Assembly: GCF_018324685.1 (NCBI RefSeq) | Contig: NZ_AP023354.1 | Location: 2,976,001 to 3,040,000, forward strand | Source of the DNA: Actinocatenispora sera | GTDB taxonomy: Bacteria; Actinomycetota; Actinomycetes; Mycobacteriales; Micromonosporaceae | Reading direction: 5' to 3' | Length of the DNA stretch: 64,000 bases | In this document: positions 55,041 to 60,737 of the stretch, piece by piece | Position numbering within the stretch: the first letter of the stretch is position 1 | How the letters are laid out: every line of letters begins with the position of its first letter | The notes under the pieces: generated by a model | What the model was told of the DNA's origin: nothing | Seen by the model: only the letters and a program-made list of their open reading frames with translations | Databases searched by the model: none | Made by a program: the position numbers and the translations under genes

Positions 55041-56641
55041 TCAGACCTCGCCGCGGGAGAAGTCGGCGATCAGGCCCGGCACCGCGGCGTCGAAACCGGA
55101 CACGTCCAGCATCCCGGCGTCCGCCGGATCGGCGATCGTGAACTTCGTCGGCGTCAGCGCCGCGACCACCAGCCGCGCCGGGATCCCGGTCGCCGCACGG
55201 TACTCGGCCAGCGCCTGGTGCGGGTGCACCCGGCCGGCCCACGTCTCGTTGTCGGTCAGCACCACGAACGTGTCCACCTCGACGCCCTGTTCCCGCGCCC
55301 ACACCATCGGCAGCGCGCAGTCGGTACCACCGAACGGCAGGTTCGACACGGCGTCGACCGCGTCGTCGAGCCGCTGCCGCGGGCTGATCGCCAGGGGCGT
55401 CAACCCCGCATCCCGGTACGAGCCGGCACTGGTGAAGCCGACGATCGCGTGCGCCGGCTCGGTCGCCGCGGTCACCAGCGCCAGCGCCGCCGACGCCTCC
55501 CGGCACGATACCGGCAGGCCGCCGGCCGGCGACATCATCGAACCCGACACGTCCAGTGCCAGCAGCGTCCGCTTCCCGGCCGGGCGCACCGCACCGTACG
55601 CCGCGTAGAACGCCGCGTCCAGCGCATCCACGATCGGTGCCGACGGAACCCAGGTACGGTCCGAACGACCCGACGCGCCCGCCGCGTAGGTGCGCGCGGC
55701 CACCAGCACGTTGACCGGATGCACCCGCGCCGCCGCCAACCGCTGCGGGTCGGTCAGCTGAGCCGCCACCGCCGCCGCCCGCGACGACATCGGAGCGAGC
55801 AGCCCCAGCCGGGTCAGCCGCGGCAGCTGCCGCAGCAGCGCCGTCTGCGGCAGACCACGGTCCAGCAGCGCGGCCCACACGTCCGGCTCGGTCAACGCCG
55901 CATCCGGCAGCATCTCCCAGGACAGACCAGCAGTGCCGATCAGCCGTACCCAGCTCGCGACGTCGCTCGTCGCGTTCGCGGCGAGGAAAGCGCGGTACAG
56001 CGGCAACTCCGCCAGCTCCGCATCCCGGCCACAGACCAGGTCGAACAGCGCCCGCCGCGCCGGCTCGCCGGTGACCGGGTGCGCCAGCCGCAACAGGTCG
56101 CGATGCGTCCAGCCCTCCCGCTGCCGGTACTTCACCAGCTGGTACTCCAAGCGCTCCAGGCTGGAATCCAGGTACCAACCGGCGACCGCGCGACGAGCCC
56201 CCGGCCCCAGCCGGCGAACTGCTCGCGGTAGCGGGCGAACAGGAACAGGTGCGTACCGGTACGGCACACCTGCGGCAGCGCCGCGAACGCCGCGCGCCGA
56301 CCGTCCACGTCACCCAGCGCCGAGGCGGCGGCCAACGCGAACACGGCCGGGTTCTGCCGCGGCGCGCGCCCCGACGTCGACACCTCGACCACCGTACGCA
56401 CCAGCTCGGTCGCGTCCGCACCGGCAGCGTCGAGCACGACCTGCGCGTTGTCCGCGGCCAGCTCGGACGCCGAGGTGTAGTACGTGCCCGAGTCCACGCC
56501 CAGCGTCAGGAACCGGTGCAGCCGGGCGGCCGGCGTCACGGTGAAGCCGTAGCCGCCGGCGTTGTTGGCGACCTGCCGAGCATCGGCTCGCCGACCCTGC
56601 GGCGTGCGGCGCAGGTTGATACCCGCAAGAGCGTCGACCAT
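55041..56641 (-). pseudogene. rsr: Ro60/TROVE-domain protein (Rsr), split by a frameshift
   Basis: Read from ATG 56641 (AAGGAG upstream), the first frame codes for the N-terminal TROVE part (AAQN-less INLRRTPQGRRADARQVANN, GGYGFTVTPAARLHRFLTLG, SGTYYTSASELAADN, SGRAPRQNPAVFALA, RYREQFAGWGRG). At about 56193-56200 it breaks; the other frame resumes RRAVAGWYLDSSLERLEYQL, continues the HEAT-like TROVE region and ends in a vWA domain with intact MIDAS (LALDVSGSM). One missing C near GGGCTC restores a 533-codon gene, normal for Ro60. Ro60 is a ring-shaped protein that binds misfolded RNAs and Y RNAs. It ends the tRNA array and reads in the same direction. Confidence 0.85.
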
Positions 56642-56844
56642 TGCGGTACTCCTTCGAAACGGCGCCCGACCCCGCGAAGCAGCGGAGCCGGGCGGATGGC
56701 GGCGGGCGTGTGCCGAGCGCCGGGATCGGATCCAGGTGAGGGATAACCGACGCTCCCCGGCCCGCCGTGCAGCCGTGGGCGTGACGGACATGACGTGCCG
56801 ACCGGCTTGACGCCGACCGCAGGGCGGCCGAGCATCCGGCGCCG
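56642..56844. other. Leader region between tRNA array and Ro60 gene
   Basis: This 203-base stretch lies between the last tRNA-like element and the Ro60 start. On the minus strand it opens with GGCGCC-TC-GGCGCC-like hairpin (at about 56838-56851). I see no ORF; a Y-RNA could be encoded here or in the adjacent tRNA-like elements. Confidence 0.3.
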
Positions 56845-56912
56845 AGGCGCCGCGGGACTCGAACCCGCAACCCGGAGGTTGTTGCCAGATAACCGATCGA
56901 CTCCGGCCCGTC
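56845..56912 (-). ncRNA. tRNA-like element C next to the Ro60 gene
   Basis: Has a perfect T-arm (GCGGG TTCGAGT CCCGC) and a D-arm-like GGCC-N10-GGTT, but no acceptor pairing, no us-able anticodon stem, and A at position 33. CCGGAG ... CTCCGG can form a long hairpin instead. The T-arm and D-arm are nearly those of element A. Candidate Y-RNA-like or decayed tRNA. Confidence 0.4.
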
Positions 56913-56934
56913 ACGATGAAGTTGTGGGGGATGG

Positions 56935-56983
56935 GCGTGTTGTGCGCTCCGGGACAAGTGCTCTACCGTTGAGCTACGCCGGC
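56935..56983 (-). ncRNA. tRNA 5' half (element B)
   Basis: GCCGGCG, T8-A9, D-arm GCTC-AACGGTA-GAGC and A26 are canonical, but no matching anticodon arm or T-arm follows. Its acceptor 5' strand pairs with the acceptor 3' strand of element A just upstream, so halves of one tRNA appear in swapped order. Confidence 0.4.
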
Positions 56984-56986
56984 TCG

Positions 56987-57058
56987 TACCGGCGGCGGGA
57001 CTCGAACCCGCAACTCTCCATTAGATGTGGTAACCGAATCGCTCCGGCCCATCCCCGC
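56987..57058 (-). tRNA. tRNA-like element A (Arg TCT by position), doubtful
   Basis: T-arm and D-arm are good and T8-G9 is present, but the 5' strand GCGGGGA does not pair with the 3' strand CGCCGGT. The loop CATCTAA gives TCT with A33. Not a normal tRNA. Confidence 0.4.
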
Positions 57059-57086
57059 GCCGTACCGGCTGGTACGGCGACGTCTG

Positions 57087-57105
57087 TCCACAGTGGATGG
57101 CATGG
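57087..57105. repeat. 19-bp inverted repeat, left copy
   Basis: TCCACAGTGGATGGCATGG; its exact complement is at 60238-60256. The two copies bracket nearly the whole tRNA array. Confidence 0.7.
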
Positions 57106-57109
57106 TTCG

Positions 57110-57188
57110 AGGTCCCGCTCGGAGTCGAACCGAGACGTGTCCACTCGCTTTGCAGGCGAGCCGCTCCACCGGGAACGCCCACGGGACC
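57110..57188 (-). tRNA. tRNA-Cys (GCA)
   Basis: Acceptor GGTCCCG/CGGGACC, T73, loop CTGCAAA, stem CTCGC/GCGAG, T-loop TTCGACT. No CCA encoded. Confidence 0.9.
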
Positions 57189-57199
57189 TGGAACGCACG

Positions 57200-57272
57200 T
57201 GCGCCCGGCTGGGATCGAACCAGCGACCTTCCGGGTCGGAGCCGGATGCTCTGTCCGCTGAGCTACGAGCGC
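57200..57272 (-). tRNA. tRNA-Arg (CCG)
   Basis: Acceptor GCGCTCG/CGGGCGC, loop CTCCGAC, T-loop TTCGATC, A73. Confidence 0.9.
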
Positions 57273-57277
57273 ATGCG

Positions 57278-57359
57278 TGCGCGTCCCTGGTGCCGACCCA
57301 GGTCTGCCCGAAGGCGGCAGCTTTACAGGCTGCTGGACGTGCCGCCGTCCACGACGCGC
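57278..57359 (-). tRNA. tRNA-Tyr (GTA), class II
   Basis: Acceptor GCGCGTC/GACGCGC perfect, loop CTGTAAA, long variable arm CGCCTTCGGGCAGA as expected for bacterial Tyr. The T-loop GTCGGCA departs from TTCRANN. Confidence 0.85.
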
Positions 57360-57363
57360 ATGG

Positions 57364-57438
57364 GGTGACCACCCGGAGTCGAACCGAGGACCTTCAGATC
57401 CACAATCTGACGTGCACCACCGGTACACCATGGTCACC
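57364..57438 (-). tRNA. tRNA-His (GTG) with G-1
   Basis: Acceptor GTGACCA/TGGTCAC with G-1 opposite C73, the His identity element; loop TTGTGGA. Confidence 0.92.
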
Positions 57439-57439
57439 G

Positions 57440-57512
57440 TGCCCGGGGAGGGACTCGAACCCCCGCTCCTCTGCTTGTAGGGCAGCTGCTCTCGCCGCTG
57501 AGCTACCCGGGC
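57440..57512 (-). tRNA. tRNA-Val (TAC), C33
   Basis: Acceptor GCCCGGG/CCCGGGC, A73, loop CCTACAA with C instead of U at position 33. Confidence 0.85.
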
Positions 57513-57553
57513 CCGCCGGCTCCCGTGGTTCTCGGGAACCGGCACCGAACTGG

Positions 57554-57626
57554 CTCTGGAGGCAGGGTTCGAACCTGCAGTCTTCCGGTTAACAGCCGGC
57601 TGCTCTGCCCGTTGAGCTACTCCAGA
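57554..57626 (-). tRNA. tRNA-Asn (GTT)
   Basis: Acceptor TCTGGAG/CTCCAGA, G73, loop CTGTTAA, T-loop TTCGAAC. Confidence 0.93.
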
Positions 57627-57631
57627 ACGCG

Positions 57632-57703
57632 TCGCGCGTGCGGGACTCGAACCCGCTCTGCTGCGGTGAAAGCGCAGCGGCCTAACCCATAGCCGAACGC
57701 GCG
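57632..57703 (-). tRNA. tRNA-Glu (TTC)
   Basis: Acceptor CGCGCGT/ACGCGCG, loop CTTTCAC, T-loop TTCGAGT, A73. Confidence 0.9.
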
Positions 57704-57713
57704 TTCGGTGTGG

Positions 57714-57784
57714 TTGCGGATGTCCGACTCGAACGGCGTCTCGGGATCATGACTCCCGCGTGGTTCCACTCCACCACATCCGCA
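57714..57784 (-). tRNA. tRNA-Met (CAT)
   Basis: Acceptor TGCGGAT/ATCCGCA, loop GTCATGA, A73. Two mismatches in the T stem. The pairing at 1-72 (T-A) argues against an initiator; an Ile2 (lysidine) type is possible. Confidence 0.82.
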
Positions 57785-57814
57785 GTGCACCGCCAGGCAC
57801 TCGGCCCGGCGTCG

Positions 57815-57886
57815 TGCGCCGTGCAGGGCTCGAACCTGCGTCCTCGGATTAAGAGTCCGGTGCTAAACCAGCTCAGCTAACGGCGC
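57815..57886 (-). tRNA. tRNA-Lys (CTT)
   Basis: Acceptor GCGCCGT/ACGGCGC, loop CTCTTAA, T-loop TTCGAGC, A73. Confidence 0.9.
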
Positions 57887-57890
57887 ATGG

Positions 57891-57975
57891 CGGTGAGGGT
57901 GGGAGTTGAACCCACAAAGCCAGAGGCTCTAACGGTTTTCGGGACCGCGCCCGTCGCCGGTCGGGTGGCCTCACC
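57891..57975 (-). tRNA. tRNA-Ser (CGA), class II, C33
   Basis: Acceptor GGTGAGG/CCTCACC, long variable arm AGAGCC-TCT-GGCTTT, loop CCCGAAA with C33, T-loop TTCAACT, G73. Confidence 0.82.
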
Positions 57976-57979
57976 ATGG

Positions 57980-58054
57980 TCGGGTTGGCCGGATTCGAAC
58001 CGGCGGCCTTCCGCTCCCGAAGCGGACGCGCTGACCAAGCTGCGCCACAACCCG
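57980..58054 (-). tRNA. tRNA-Pro (CGG)
   Basis: Acceptor CGGGTTG/CAACCCG, loop TTCGGGA, T-loop TTCGAAT, A73. Confidence 0.92.
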
Positions 58055-58059
58055 ATGCG

Positions 58060-58133
58060 TACCCCCGGCGCGATTCGAACGCGCGACCTCCTGGTTCGTA
58101 GCCAAGCACTCTGATCCGCTGAGCTACGGGGGC
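58060..58133 (-). tRNA. tRNA-Arg (ACG)
   Basis: Acceptor GCCCCCG/CGGGGGT, loop CTACGAA, A73. Its 5' end is 3 bases from the palindromic element. Confidence 0.92.
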
Positions 58134-58135
58134 TC

Positions 58136-58300
58136 AGGGTGTGTTCGAGCATCCCGCGTGCCGGCTGCGGCGGCCCCGTTTGCCCGCTCGCGGCGTTGTC
58201 GGACAGCCCGTGTGCAAGCCCGGCACACGAACTGCCCTCCGCCTTGCGAGCAGACAAACGCGACTCGCCTCGCTCGGCCGGGGGTCCTCGAACACACCCT
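58136..58300. mobile_element. 165-bp palindromic element inside the tRNA array
   Basis: Ends are a perfect 14-bp inverted repeat AGGGTGTGTTCGAG / its complement (58136-58149, 58287-58300). Inner nested repeats include CGTTTG/CAAACG and CGTGTGC/GCACACG, so the whole can fold as a cruciform. No ORF or tRNA. The inner ends match the shorter palindrome at 26859-26914. MITE-like, or a structured RNA. Confidence 0.65.
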
Positions 58301-58302
58301 TG

Positions 58303-58377
58303 TCCTGCCGGCTGGATTCGAACCAGCGGCCTTCGCTGTATCAGAGCGACGCTCGAACCGGGGCGAGCTGCGGCAGG
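58303..58377 (-). tRNA. tRNA-Ile (GAT)
   Basis: Acceptor CCTGCCG/CGGCAGG, loop CTGATAC, T-loop TTCGAAT, A73; position 8 is C. Its 3' end is 3 bases from the palindromic element. Confidence 0.88.
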
Positions 58378-58381
58378 ATTG

Positions 58382-58466
58382 CGGAGAGAGCAGGGATCGA
58401 ACCTGCGCGGGGCGAACCCCGTCGACGGCTTAGCACGCCGCAGCCTTACCACTCGGCCACCTCTCC
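58382..58466 (-). tRNA. tRNA-Ser (GCT), class II
   Basis: Acceptor GGAGAGG/TCTCTCC, loop GTGCTAA, long variable arm CGACGGGGTTCGCCCCGCG, G73. Fully canonical. Confidence 0.95.
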
Positions 58467-58474
58467 CGGCATGG

Positions 58475-58549
58475 CGGTGACGACCGGACTCGAACCGGCG
58501 ACCCTCGGCGTGACAAGCCGATGCTCTGGCCTGACTGAGCTACGCCACC
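58475..58549 (-). tRNA. tRNA-Asp (GTC)
   Basis: Acceptor GGTGGCG/CGTCACC, loop TTGTCAC, G73 as required for Asp. Confidence 0.93.
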
Positions 58550-58562
58550 CGATGATGCTGCG

Positions 58563-58637
58563 TACCCGGGGTGCGATTCGAACGCACACTGTCCTGGTCC
58601 TGAACCAAGCGCCTCCTGCCAGTTGGGCTACCCGGGC
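58563..58637 (-). tRNA. tRNA with Leu anticodon (CAG), class I variable loop
   Basis: Acceptor GCCCGGG/CCCGGGT, A73, loop TTCAGGA, but the variable loop is only about 5 bases (ACAGT). Normal bacterial Leu tRNAs are class II. Confidence 0.8.
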
Positions 58638-58641
58638 ATGG

Positions 58642-58705
58642 TGGACAACCTCGGTATCGAACCGAGCAGGCGCTGTGTGCAAGACAGCGCTGCGCACCTG
58701 CGCGT
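58642..58705 (-). tRNA. Degenerate tRNA, Ala-like (TGC)
   Basis: T-arm CTCGG-TTCGATA-CCGAG and loop CTTGCAC in a stem GCTGT/ACAGC are clear, but no 5' strand pairs with the 3' strand GTTGTCC. Probably broken. Confidence 0.5.
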
Positions 58706-58747
58706 CGCCCTGACGGCGGCGCGGAGCGCGCGTCGCCGGTACCGCCG

Positions 58748-58818
58748 AGCCAACGCCAGGAGTCGAACCTGGACCGGCCGCTTACGAGGCGGCTGCACGG
58801 CCATCGTGCTGCGTCGGC
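58748..58818 (-). tRNA. tRNA-Thr (CGT)
   Basis: Acceptor GCCGACG/CGTTGGC, loop CTCGTAA, T73; position 8 is C. Confidence 0.85.
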
Positions 58819-58819
58819 G

Positions 58820-58894
58820 TGCCCTCGAGGCGATTCGAACGCCTACTGTCGGTCCCCTCAAGACCGTGCCTCCTGCCAGTTGGGCTACGAGGGC
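58820..58894 (-). tRNA. tRNA with Leu anticodon (GAG), class I variable loop
   Basis: Acceptor GCCCTCG/CGAGGGC, A73, loop TTGAGGG, short variable loop ACAGT, D-arm as in the CAG gene. One base from the Thr tRNA. Confidence 0.82.
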
Positions 58895-58898
58895 GGCG

Positions 58899-58970
58899 AT
58901 CCCCCGCGTGGATTCGAACCACGCTTTCGGCGTTCAGAGCGCCGCGTCCTGCCGGATAGACGACGGGGGA
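58899..58970 (-). tRNA. tRNA-Gln (CTG)
   Basis: Acceptor TCCCCCG/CGGGGGA, loop CTCTGAA, T73. The D-arm is Glu-like. Confidence 0.88.
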
Positions 58971-59035
58971 GAGGGGCCGGTGACCCCGTACCTGCCAAGG
59001 CGATCGAGATGCCGTTGGTGGGTCACCGGCCGGGA

Positions 59036-59479
59036 TCAGCGCTTGGTCACCTGCGCCCAGGCCGGGGTGCGCGGTACGACGCGCAGTCGCATGCCGGCCT
59101 CGTCGGGGGTGCGGTCACCCTTGCGCTGGTTGCAGCCGCTGCAGGCGGCCACGGTGTTGCGCCAGGTGTTCTTGCCGCCGCGGGAGCGCGGCAGGATGTG
59201 GTCGACGGTGCTCGCCGGATCGCCGCAGTAGCCGCACCGGTGGCCGTCGCGGGCCATCAGCCCGCGCCGGGACCAGGCCGGTCCGGCGGAGAACCGCCAG
59301 CGCGTGACGACGTAGCGAACCAGCCGCACCACCTTGGGCAGCGGGTAGATGCCGAGCAGCTGGTCGGGCACCGCCTCGTGTACGACGGCGACCTTGCGGC
59401 ACAGCATCCGGATCGCGTGTTGGATCGGCACCCGGTGCAGCGGCCCCAGGTCCGCGTTGAGTACCAGTACCGCGTCCAC
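59036..59479 (-). CDS. HNH endonuclease inside the tRNA array
   Basis: The 147-residue protein carries a complete HNH site: CGYC, VDHILPRSRGG, NTVAACSGCNQRKGDRTP (two CxxC zinc pairs, His and Asn). GTG start 59479 has AAGGAGGT 5 bases upstream, so it is translated on its own. Same direction as the tRNAs; flanked by tRNA-Gly and tRNA-Gln. Such HNH genes occur in mobile tRNA arrays and phages and may drive insertion or cut target DNA. It looks intact. Confidence 0.9.
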   Translation of the reverse strand: MDAVLVLNADLGPLHRVPIQHAIRMLCRKVAVVHEAVPDQLLGIYPLPKVVRLVRYVVTRWRFSAGPAWSRRGLMARDGHRCGYCGDPASTVDHILPRSRGGKNTWRNTVAACSGCNQRKGDRTPDEAGMRLRVVPRTPAWAQVTKR

Positions 59480-59522
59480 CGGGCACCTCCTTCCTGTTGG
59501 CCCGTGGTCGATGTGATGTGCG

Positions 59523-59594
59523 AGCGGCAGGCGGGGTTCGAACCCGCGACCTCGACGATGGCAACGTCGCGCTCTACCTCTGAGCTACAACCGC
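59523..59594 (-). tRNA. tRNA-Gly (GCC)
   Basis: Loop TTGCCAT in stem CGACG/CGTCG, T-arm perfect; one mismatch and one wobble in the acceptor (GCGGTTG/CTGCCGC). Confidence 0.85.
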
Positions 59595-59598
59595 GTGG

Positions 59599-59671
59599 AG
59601 CCGCCGGCCAGACTCGAACTGGCTACCTCCGTCGTACCGGGACGGTGCTCGACCCGATGAGCTACGGCGGC
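59599..59671 (-). tRNA. tRNA-Thr (GGT), C33
   Basis: Acceptor GCCGCCG/CGGCGGC, loop CCGGTAC with C33, T-loop TTCGAGT. Confidence 0.85.
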
Positions 59672-59675
59672 ATCG

Positions 59676-59750
59676 TGCCCTGCGAGGGAGTCGAACCCTC
59701 ACCACACCGGGTTTGAGCCGGCGCCCTCGTGCCAGTTGGGGTAGCAGGGC
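59676..59750 (-). tRNA. tRNA with Leu anticodon (CAA), class I variable loop
   Basis: Acceptor GCCCTGC/GCAGGGC, A73, loop CTCAAAC, about 5-base variable loop. Confidence 0.82.
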
Positions 59751-59755
59751 AGAAG

Positions 59756-59828
59756 AGCGGCCGGCGGGCATCGGACCCGCTTCTCCGGTTTGGAAGACCG
59801 GCGTGTCCGCCGAGTTCACCACGGCCGC
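59756..59828 (-). tRNA. tRNA-Gly (TCC), unusual T-loop
   Basis: Acceptor GCGGCCG/CGGCCGC, loop CTTCCAA; T-loop is TCCGATG rather than TTCRANN. Confidence 0.82.
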
Positions 59829-59832
59829 ACAG

Positions 59833-59904
59833 CAGCGAGTAGGGGAGTCGAACCCCTGTTTCCGGATTGAGAATCCGGCGGCCTGACCGCTAGCCGAACC
59901 CGCC
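59833..59904 (-). tRNA. tRNA-Glu (CTC)
   Basis: Acceptor GGCGGGT/ACTCGCT with two G-T pairs, loop TTCTCAA, G73. Confidence 0.87.
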
Positions 59905-59953
59905 TGGAAAGGCCCGGCCGCGACGGGCTGTGCCGTCGCGGTCGAGACCTCGC

Positions 59954-60030
59954 GGTGCCTCGCGCCCGGTTCGAACGGGCAACCTCCGGGTCTTCACGCC
60001 GGCGCTCCACCTGTTGAGCTTGCGAGGCAC
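59954..60030 (-). tRNA. tRNA-Phe (GAA)
   Basis: Acceptor GTGCCTC/GAGGCAC, loop GTGAAGA; one C-C mismatch closing the anticodon stem. Confidence 0.87.
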
Positions 60031-60033
60031 GAG

Positions 60034-60109
60034 TGGACCGTCAGGGGGTCGAACCCTGCACACGCTGCCTGCCAGGCGGCGCCGCACAGCCGGTGCGTAC
60101 AGCCCATGG
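60034..60109 (-). tRNA. Degenerate tRNA-Ala-like (GGC)
   Basis: Loop CTGGCAG and a perfect T-arm CAGGG-TTCGACC-CCCTG, but the acceptor pairs poorly and the 5' end runs into the neighbouring tRNA. Confidence 0.55.
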
Positions 60110-60181
60110 TCTGGTGCCCGCGAGTCGAACGCGGTGTCTCTTGCTTCCAGGGCAAGCGGGTTCCCGTCTCCCTCGCACCAG
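60110..60181 (-). tRNA. Atypical tRNA, Pro-like (TGG), C33
   Basis: Acceptor CTGGTGC/GCACCAG and T-arm are perfect; loop CCTGGAA gives TGG if C33 is accepted. Position 8 is G and the D-arm is odd, so identity is uncertain. Confidence 0.6.
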
Positions 60182-60237
60182 ATGGGCCGGCCCCCAAGAG
60201 CTCGCTCGTCGCGAGGCTCCGGTCGGGGCCGACCGTT

Positions 60238-60256
60238 CCATGCCATCCACTGTGGA
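60238..60256. repeat. 19-bp inverted repeat, right copy
   Basis: CCATGCCATCCACTGTGGA, exact complement of 57087-57105. It lies in the 116-base gap (60182-60297) that otherwise shows no gene. Confidence 0.7.
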
Positions 60257-60297
60257 GTTGACAATGAGCAGGCCCACCAGCCGTGGCTGGGGGCACG

Positions 60298-60370
60298 CAC
60301 GGGCGGCAGGACTCGAACCTGCAACCGGCGGTGTTGGAGACCGCTGCTCATCCAGTTGAGCTACGCCCGT
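60298..60370 (-). tRNA. tRNA-Trp (CCA), first gene of the array
   Basis: Acceptor ACGGGCG/CGCCCGT, loop CTCCAAC, G73 as required for Trp, T-loop TTCGAGT. Confidence 0.95.
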
Positions 60371-60389
60371 ATTCTGTTGTGCGGCAACG

Positions 60390-60423
60390 AAAAAGCCGCC
60401 CTACCCGGATCGGGTGGGCGGCT
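60390..60423 (-). terminator. Rho-independent terminator just upstream of the array
   Basis: On the minus strand AGCCGCCCACCCG pairs with CGGGTAGGGCGGCT (one bulge) and is followed by TTTTT. It ends the small ORF transcript and stands 20 bases before tRNA-Trp, leaving no room for a normal promoter between. Confidence 0.85.
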
Positions 60424-60446
60424 GCAAGGCGCGCGGTTCGCGTCTG

Positions 60447-60569
60447 TTACACCCACCTACCCGTCTGCTCGACGGCGCTGGCGTGTTCGATGAGCCCCAG
60501 GTAGGGCATGATCGAGCCACCGCACAGCGCGCGGCGCTGCGGGTTGGTGGGCTTCGACCACTCGAACAT
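60447..60569 (-). CDS. Small ORF (40 residues) upstream of the tRNA array
   Basis: ATG 60569 has GACGGAG 7 bases upstream and the ORF (MFEWSKPTNPQRRALCGGSI, ending VEQTGRWV) stops just before the terminator at 60390. A TTGCGT-N18-TATCGT promoter-like pair lies further upstream at about 60630-60660. I do not recognise the peptide; it could be a leader peptide or a small protein. Confidence 0.5.
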   Translation of the reverse strand: MFEWSKPTNPQRRALCGGSIMPYLGLIEHASAVEQTGRWV

Positions 60570-60737
60570 CTGGCTGCTCCGTCTCGGACCGGTTGGCTTG
60601 CTTCTGGCTGTCGTTGCTTTCAACGAAGACGATACGACTGCTATTCCAGTGCACGCAATGATTTAACGACGACGATCCCGACAGCCGCCACCGATCCCGG
60701 CACCAATTGTCGTCAGTTCCGTTGGGGCGTAACGCAA

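Follow-up and report, generated by a model that had tools for sequence, protein, structure and literature searches.

A gene of the Ro60 family stands at the end of a long array of transfer RNA (tRNA) genes in Actinocatenispora sera, and arrays ending in this way recur across the family to which this species belongs. The locus occupies positions 55041–60370 of the 64,000-nucleotide stretch NZ_AP023354.1 2,976,001–3,040,000, which we call the window. Read along the minus strand the order is tRNA-Trp, a leader, 27 further tRNA genes with a gene for an HNH endonuclease among them, a trailer, Y RNA genes and lastly the Ro60 gene, which begins at 56641. We read this, with about even confidence, as a polycistronic tRNA operon resembling a ribosomal RNA (rRNA) operon, with a Ro60 quality-control cassette attached at its end. 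The anatomy and its recurrence in the family are well supported. Comparison between sequences brings out the linkage, the common gene order, a fixed slot for HNH, the Y RNAs, a leader motif and complementary flanking arms; co-transcription, antitermination and tRNA quality control we infer.

The array comprises 28 tRNA genes called by ARAGORN, every one on the minus strand within 3.26 kb (57109–60370), and all 20 amino acids are represented among them. Both array tRNA-Ala genes retain, as read by eye, the G3:U70 pair that marks alanine tRNAs. The genome has 69 Rfam tRNAs, 22 within the array and 47 outside it. With at least 20 tRNA genes in one dense run the locus falls among the tRNA array units defined in Mycobacterium (Morgado and Vicente 2018, PMC5966550); in the part of that source consulted these are described as having 20–39 tRNAs, as occurring on chromosomes, plasmids and phages, and as having an HNH endonuclease as their most widespread protein gene. 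An earlier, sequence-only reading of the window had proposed that the Ro60 gene reads in the direction of the array and that the array carries an HNH gene, and both proposals hold. It had also placed the start of Ro60 200 bases after the last array element. The last true tRNA, for Cys, in fact ends at 57109, a gap of about 470 bases, and the Y RNA genes in this gap were probably taken for the last elements of the array. The Y RNAs, the antiterminator-like leader and the complementary flanking arms had all been missed.

A search of 354 genomes of the family gave a TROVE match at E ≤ 1e-8 in 92. Up to 10 kb on each side was fetched around 98 TROVE genes (the gene of the window excluded, and some stretches cut by contig ends). 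Fourteen of these genes, from 10 genera, have at least five tRNAs within 10 kb as called by ARAGORN, and 282 of the 285 tRNA calls at the 14 loci lie upstream and on the same strand. The number of calls is slightly high because ARAGORN reads some Y RNAs as tRNAs. In 11 of the 14 arrays the isotype order is closer to that of the window than in any of 1000 shuffles; three arrays of six calls were not significant. By comparison, 0.3% of 20-kb windows in the A. sera genome contain at least five Rfam tRNAs. The binomial chance of 14 in 98 is then about 2e-19, or about 6e-13 with the background tripled, values that are optimistic, as the background comes from Rfam tRNAs in a single genome and the binomial ignores the relatedness of the genomes. 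The array state needs at least nine changes on a quick TROVE tree, one of them perhaps due to the outgroup row L035, which belongs to the other subfamily; the tree has many weak branches, and L129 was omitted as too short. In an earlier mixed tree the two subfamilies were joined by very long branches and 28 of 153 rows were missing. A single clade of array-linked Ro60 genes was rejected on the count of changes. Outside the family, most of the Ro60 genes that were examined stand without an array, as would be expected if the position of Ro60 beside tRNAs were a meaningless coincidence, but both the excess over background and the number of changes on the tree make that explanation highly improbable.

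Different Ro60 proteins occupy the same place behind one array type, since the gene at the array end is canonical in the window and in a second genome of the genus (G003) and belongs to a single divergent TROVE cluster of 97 loci at the other 13. The canonical gene of the window matches PF05731 (TROVE) and PF25045 (the Ro60-type vWA domain) above cut-off, the matches being spread over two frames, and the NCBIfam Rsr model scores the second frame at 355 bits and the G003 protein at 470 bits, both below its cut-off of 900. In G003 the gene is open without stops behind the same array, and the array, Y RNAs, Ro60 and flanks are common to the two genomes; two other genomes of the genus gave no TROVE match. 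The 14 arrays thus end in 13 divergent genes and one canonical gene. In all 13 divergent genes the listed TROVE match begins at profile position 272 or later. L052, the one divergent member run through Pfam, has TROVE at 277–351 and a weak VWA_2 match. An AlphaFold2 model of this protein from an alignment of 44 sequences has a predicted local distance difference test (pLDDT) score of 88.9, and all 13 of its PDB matches at E ≤ 0.001 are Ro60 or TROVE entries. The divergent array-end protein is therefore predicted to have the Ro60 fold, as modelled for this one member. The array-linked TROVE gene L129 (G350) is open over only 327 amino acids at the match and may be disrupted like that of the window, or misassembled.

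The gap between the array and Ro60 contains one Y RNA, a probable second and a tentative short third (Table 1). Y RNA 1 resembles YrlA in having its own ends predicted to close a stem around a permuted tRNA-like domain beside a Ro60 gene, as judged from its score with our covariance model R1 and the covariation of the related set. Upstream of divergent TROVE genes there are tandem units whose own ends likewise close around a permuted tRNA-like core of T-arm, acceptor-like stem and D-arm. In an alignment of 39 such units from 19 genera, two-sided compensatory changes keep 22 of the 34 predicted pairs. R1 was built from this alignment, for which 37 loci supplied the training sequences. R1 matches at E ≤ 0.001 are present in 95 of the 98 family loci, and in 58 of the 61 outside the training set, as counted from the match table with position and strand not checked match by match; L046, L078 and L120 (the last cut by a contig end) have none at this threshold. 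R1 also matches 28 of 29 loci of a class sample at E ≤ 0.01 and, at E ≤ 0.001, 51 of 62 sources of canonical Ro60, some of these partially. We took all Y RNA counts from the covariance model because units found by regular expression include false ones inside reading frames. The Rfam YrlA model (RF02553) gives Y RNA 1 a partial match of 39.5 bits, below the gathering score of 69, and its cut-off was reached by none of the window, the seven divergent loci and the five canonical loci tested. For the Y-like RNA 3 the fold is not clearly above shuffles (z = −1.44) and R1 gives no useful score.

Partial R1 matches covering core positions of about 46–117 are found at adjoining tRNA genes, for example at 57599–57656 and 59561–59630 in the window. 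From the sequences, the permuted tRNA-like core of Y RNAs could derive from tandem tRNA genes. That the Y RNAs are a part of the array itself was considered and rejected: at 20 fetched places with HNH and no TROVE gene, the 30 R1 matches listed (E ≤ 1e-4, at most 46.8 bits) all fall within the array spans and none after them.

Table 1. Features of the tRNA array and Ro60 locus, in window coordinates
Feature	Position	Strand	Evidence and remarks
tRNA-Trp(cca), first gene of the array, upstream of the leader	60297..60370	-	ARAGORN; Trp also first in many related arrays
rRNA-type antiterminator-like leader TTGTCAACTCCACAG	60250..60264	-	TTGAGAACTCCACAG is a common form in related arrays
Long-range closing stem, 5' arm TCCACAGTGGATGGCAT	60240..60256	-	Complementary to 57087-57103
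Eight tRNA genes: Pro, Ala, Phe, Glu, Gly, Leu, Thr, Gly	59522..60181	-	ARAGORN
HNH endonuclease gene, 147 amino acids, inside the array between tRNA-Gly(gcc) and tRNA-Gln(ctg)	59036..59479	-	Pfam HNH_5/HNH
Nineteen tRNA genes: Gln, Leu, Thr, Ala, Leu, Asp, Ser, Ile, Arg, Pro, Lys, Met, Glu, Asn, Val, His, Tyr, Arg, Cys	57109..58970	-	ARAGORN; order shared by relatives
Probable 29th tRNA, Ser-CGA by eye, not called by ARAGORN	57892..57975	-	Rfam tRNA-Sec model 46.0 bits, just under the 47-bit cut-off
Closing stem, 3' arm ATGCCATCCACTGTGGA, directly after tRNA-Cys	57087..57103	-	Complementary to the 5' arm
Y RNA 1, permuted tRNA-like domain (T-arm, acceptor-like stem, D-arm)	56927..57056	-	R1 63.4 bits, full length
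Probable Y RNA 2	56777..56918	-	R1 22.9 bits (511-base search); fold z -3.99 for 56770-56916; conserved in G003
Tentative short Y-like RNA 3, closing stem CGGCGGGC/GCCCGCCG	56699..56768	-	By eye; conserved in G003
Ro60 gene, N-terminal part (TROVE 1-122), first frame	56168..56641	-	Pfam and frame comparison
Ro60 gene, remainder (rest of TROVE and vWA_Ro60), second frame	55041..56207	-	Disrupted by frame change; G003 copy intact

The leader of the array resembles in sequence the motif of the genome's own rRNA operons. Both of these have CTTGAGAACTCAACAG about 150 bases before the 16S gene and, about 330 bases beyond that gene, TTTGAGAACTGCACAGTGGA (the position of 23S was not established). The leader of the window differs by two letters from a form common in related arrays, TTGAGAACTCCACAG. 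With at most one mismatch that common form occurs 57 times in 15 genomes, against no occurrence of a reversed control; the window copy is not among the 57 because of its two differences. Nine of the 57 copies are at arrays fetched here, and four of the five in the A. sera genome are at its rRNA operons, as placed by coordinates. A further leader-like motif, TTGACAACTCCACAG, lies outside the rRNA operons and the array (G000:C1:326484-326498). We take boxC to be the name for a motif of this type.

The arms that flank the tRNAs of the window are complementary at 17 of 17 core positions and might form a long-range closing stem. We compared the arms in 32 arrays with at least five tRNAs, 15 with TROVE (the window included) and 17 without; 35 sequences were given to the script. 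An arm like the 5' arm TCCACAGTGGATGGCAT is found by the first tRNA in 25 of the 32 arrays and one like the 3' arm ATGCCATCCACTGTGGA in 25, with both in 23, two of which are false as the 3' arms of L286 and L294 fall inside the HNH gene. The sequence just before the 5' arm is frequently TTGAGAAC. Five columns of the stem have two-sided changes that keep the pair, in few lineages, so that the covariation is suggestive rather than strong. The array resembles an rRNA operon in its TTGAGAACTC-ACAG motif and its complementary flanks. Unlike an rRNA operon, its predicted stem closes tRNAs, one tRNA precedes the leader and boxA is not established. rRNA elements and a leader–trailer helix are described in PMC10250234, in the part of that source consulted. 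The search for intrinsic terminators found two against 2.0 expected, and none on the strand of the array. About 210 bases before tRNA-Trp (60373–60586) are common to the window and to G002, a genome of the same genus; by eye, this region ahead of the array shows a hairpin resembling a terminator and a short open frame.

HNH is present in 11 of the 15 TROVE-linked arrays counting the window, and the ten other proteins are 70–97% identical to that of the window. In nine of the 11 the gene occupies the slot between tRNA-Gly and tRNA-Gln; the remaining two lack the neighboring tRNA genes. A relative at E ≤ 1e-20 exists in 352 of the 354 family genomes, and besides the array type a distant copy (E about 1e-32) seems to be widespread in them. 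Of 30 close copies examined, nine lie among at least five tRNAs and 21 have no tRNAs within 1.5 kb. As to the co-occurrence of Ro60, array and HNH put forward in the sequence-only reading, HNH is a regular component of the arrays, but it is also found in arrays that have no TROVE gene nearby. G002 has an array without TROVE, and its blastn homology with the window stops at the trailer, where the Y RNA–Ro60 cassette of the window starts. The genome G320 has two fetched arrays (L124 and L288) and a third leader motif beside an HNH gene (C4:546882), and G337 has two arrays of the same order on two contigs (L297 and L298). A plasmid match to HNH, L404, has no tRNAs.

The break in homology with G002 is what would be expected if the array end were simply an insertion site, where a mobile Y RNA–Ro60 cassette lands by recombination of its tRNA-like Y RNA with tandem tRNA genes; the linkage would then be one of neighborhood and not of function. 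The scatter of the linkage over the TROVE tree, the two kinds of Ro60 at one place, the likeness of tandem tRNA junctions to the Y RNA core (the partial R1 matches) and the presence of another gene, for the RNA ligase RtcB, inside one array (L042) all agree with this. Chance insertion would, however, give both orders, whereas nearly all the tRNA calls are upstream on the same strand, and the phage pairings described below have other array orders and so do not reflect one site. Moreover, among the 45 top clusters of neighboring proteins only TROVE, HNH and the shadow frames of these two are found in over four of the 15 array loci, integrases not having been searched for by name; those clusters that reach four loci are either further shadow frames or genes flanking L124 and the three g7 loci. 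We regard the insertion-site explanation as somewhat unlikely.

Ro60 is also associated with tRNAs in phages. By tblastn, canonical Ro60 has a match in 340 of 50,697 phage records, 338 of them over at least 80% of its length, and divergent Ro60 in 85 records, of which 45 are matched over 80% or more; some records may belong to both sets. We examined 12 phages chosen by hand. In six (Samisti12, Boopy, Big4, MeganTheeKilla, GiJojo and Atuin) Ro60 lies within 5 kb of at least five annotated tRNAs on the same strand, as in the window. These six differ from the window in the order of their arrays and in the placing of Ro60, which may precede the tRNAs, follow them or lie among them. In the stretches fetched for Samisti12, Boopy, Big4 and MeganTheeKilla no copy of the leader motif was found. 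The other six have fewer than five tRNAs within 5 kb (Ava3 2, Cashline 0, Sparky 4, prophiGD43A-5 1, Quantum 2 and VanLee 1). The example of Bxz1-type phages given in the sequence-only reading is only loosely right, the main array of Ava3 (91–98 kb) being about 31 kb from its Ro60. Ro60 adjoins or lies inside tRNA-rich regions in phages of both Ro60 kinds, and three of 35 viral contigs, some represented by short stretches, have at least five tRNAs within 10 kb. Several of the phages examined are rich in tRNAs anyway, which makes the phage evidence supportive but not a test.

Phages and plasmids also suggest another origin, in which the array is the decaying relic of an element that carried tRNAs for its own codon usage, with Ro60, Y RNA and HNH as passengers. 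Phages and plasmids of mycobacteria are known to carry arrays of tRNAs together with HNH (PMC5966550), and the mycobacterial array units share with the window a dense run of tRNAs with HNH. The array plasmid pCBMA213_1 has an HNH homologue inside its array and an exact TTGAGAACTCCACAG 254 bases before the first tRNA of the fetched stretch; by eye, the isotype order in this plasmid and in Ava3 is different from that of the window. Several arrays in the family are cut down to 3–6 tRNAs, the Ro60 gene is broken in the window strain, and Ro60 has matches in 340 of the phage records. Yet the array is kept in the same order across many genera, with its flanking arms kept and some compensatory changes in them, and the recurring neighbors at the array loci are again limited to TROVE, HNH and shadow frames, although flanking genes were not searched for phage functions. 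A decaying relic thus seems quite unlikely to us.

On the reading as an rRNA-like operon with a Ro60 cassette, the leader after tRNA-Trp would let RNA polymerase read through several kb of mostly untranslated RNA. The trailer that immediately follows tRNA-Cys would pair with the 3' half of the leader, so that a leader–trailer helix encloses the tRNA section. Some lineages have, past the trailer and in the same orientation, Y RNA genes and next a gene of the Ro60 family, and tRNAs, tRNA-mimicking Y RNAs and Ro60 could there be expressed together. The most likely use would be to refill the tRNA pool, and to bind or sort damaged or misfolded tRNAs, after a tRNA-cleaving attack (by a phage, an anticodon nuclease or a toxin) or under stress. 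An antiterminated full set of tRNAs, joined in some lineages by Y RNAs and a Ro60 that sort or protect tRNAs, is the most economical account of the function. The sequence-only reading is partly supported, in its linkage of array and Ro60; the RNA shielding that it proposed is putative.

There are similarities to the RNA repair operon rsr-yrlBA-rtcBA, for which the part of PMC7790460 consulted describes a Ro60-family protein, Y RNAs with a tRNA-like domain and a link to damaged tRNA. The array loci likewise have a Ro60-family protein and Y RNAs with a tRNA-like domain, and one related array contains RtcB. They differ in that the locus is attached to a tRNA array and the Y RNA precedes Ro60, in that RtcB, the one of the two Rtc proteins searched for, was not found beside Rsr in the window, and in Y RNAs that score, in the window and the loci tested, below the Rfam cut-off for YrlA. 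The RtcB gene is a 626-amino-acid open frame (L042:6805-8682, genome G340) flanked by tRNA-Tyr and tRNA-Arg inside the array and lying immediately ahead of the Y RNA and the TROVE gene. It was recognized by the motif GTLGGGNHFIE, which we take to be a mark of this ligase. No RtcB homologue was found in 14 of the 15 array loci, the window included, as far as these were fetched. Its presence in this one array fits the sorting or protection of tRNAs under damage.

A number of results weigh against an operon with a Ro60 cassette. Within the family 84 of the 98 TROVE genes have fewer than five tRNAs within 10 kb, some stretches being cut by contig ends, and at two of the 14 array loci, L050 and L129, only five calls are left after removing a Y RNA read as a tRNA. 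Outside the family just one of 80 named loci has at least five tRNAs within 10 kb, some stretches being short; this is the Sorangium contig L226, with a canonical Ro60, six tRNAs lying on both sides of it and a homologue of the array-type HNH at 37%. In the class sample none of 25 upstream pieces of 3–6.7 kb has five tRNAs, 34 of the 59 genes having given no such piece, and the 29 loci with about 1.5 kb on each side have at most two. A lack of enrichment of TROVE beside tRNA arrays, which the sequence-only reading had named as a refutation, is not what the family shows, the linkage there being strong and repeated; in chromosomes outside the family the linkage is rare. Seventeen of the 20 fetched HNH places are arrays of at least five tRNAs and none of the 20 stretches has a TROVE gene, so the array does not need Ro60; these places were picked by hand, seven because tRNAs had already been seen there. 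Own pairs of closing-stem arms reach 17.8 of 23 and swapped pairs 17.5, a small difference because the arms are so conserved. A promoter scan found nothing. A slightly shorter slice of Y RNA 1 folds no better than shuffles (z = −0.93), and its assignment rests on R1 and on conservation with G003 and other canonical Y RNAs. Finally, the Ro60 gene of the window lacks the intact reading frame expected of Ro60/Rsr, being split between two frames with the change within about 56168–56207, so that the Ro60 step may be lost in this strain. Array and Ro60 can each exist without the other, and their joining is recurrent but not obligatory.

The locus bears on two open questions: what Ro60 and Y RNAs do in bacteria, and what purpose large tRNA arrays serve in bacteria and phages. 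Repeated joining, with two Ro60 subfamilies behind the same array type, makes tRNAs the prime candidate for the client of Ro60, and such loci are genetically simple places in which to test this. The likeness of the leader and closing stem to those of rRNA operons points to antiterminated operons as the way in which tRNA arrays are expressed, an idea absent from the text of PMC5966550, where a text search found none of TROVE, Ro60, antitermination, leader and inverted repeat. No paper in the library searched joins 'tRNA array' with 'Ro60'; other wordings and closed journals were outside this search and priority is not proved. We can tentatively go further, to a possibility that we hold to be on the doubtful side: bacteria and phages may have repeatedly assembled, with different Ro60s, a tRNA rescue operon that combines a full set of tRNAs in rRNA style with Ro60 and with Y RNAs acting as decoys, and that serves survival under attack by tRNA cleavage. 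It would follow that the permuted tRNA-like core of Y RNAs arose from a tandem tRNA junction in such an array.

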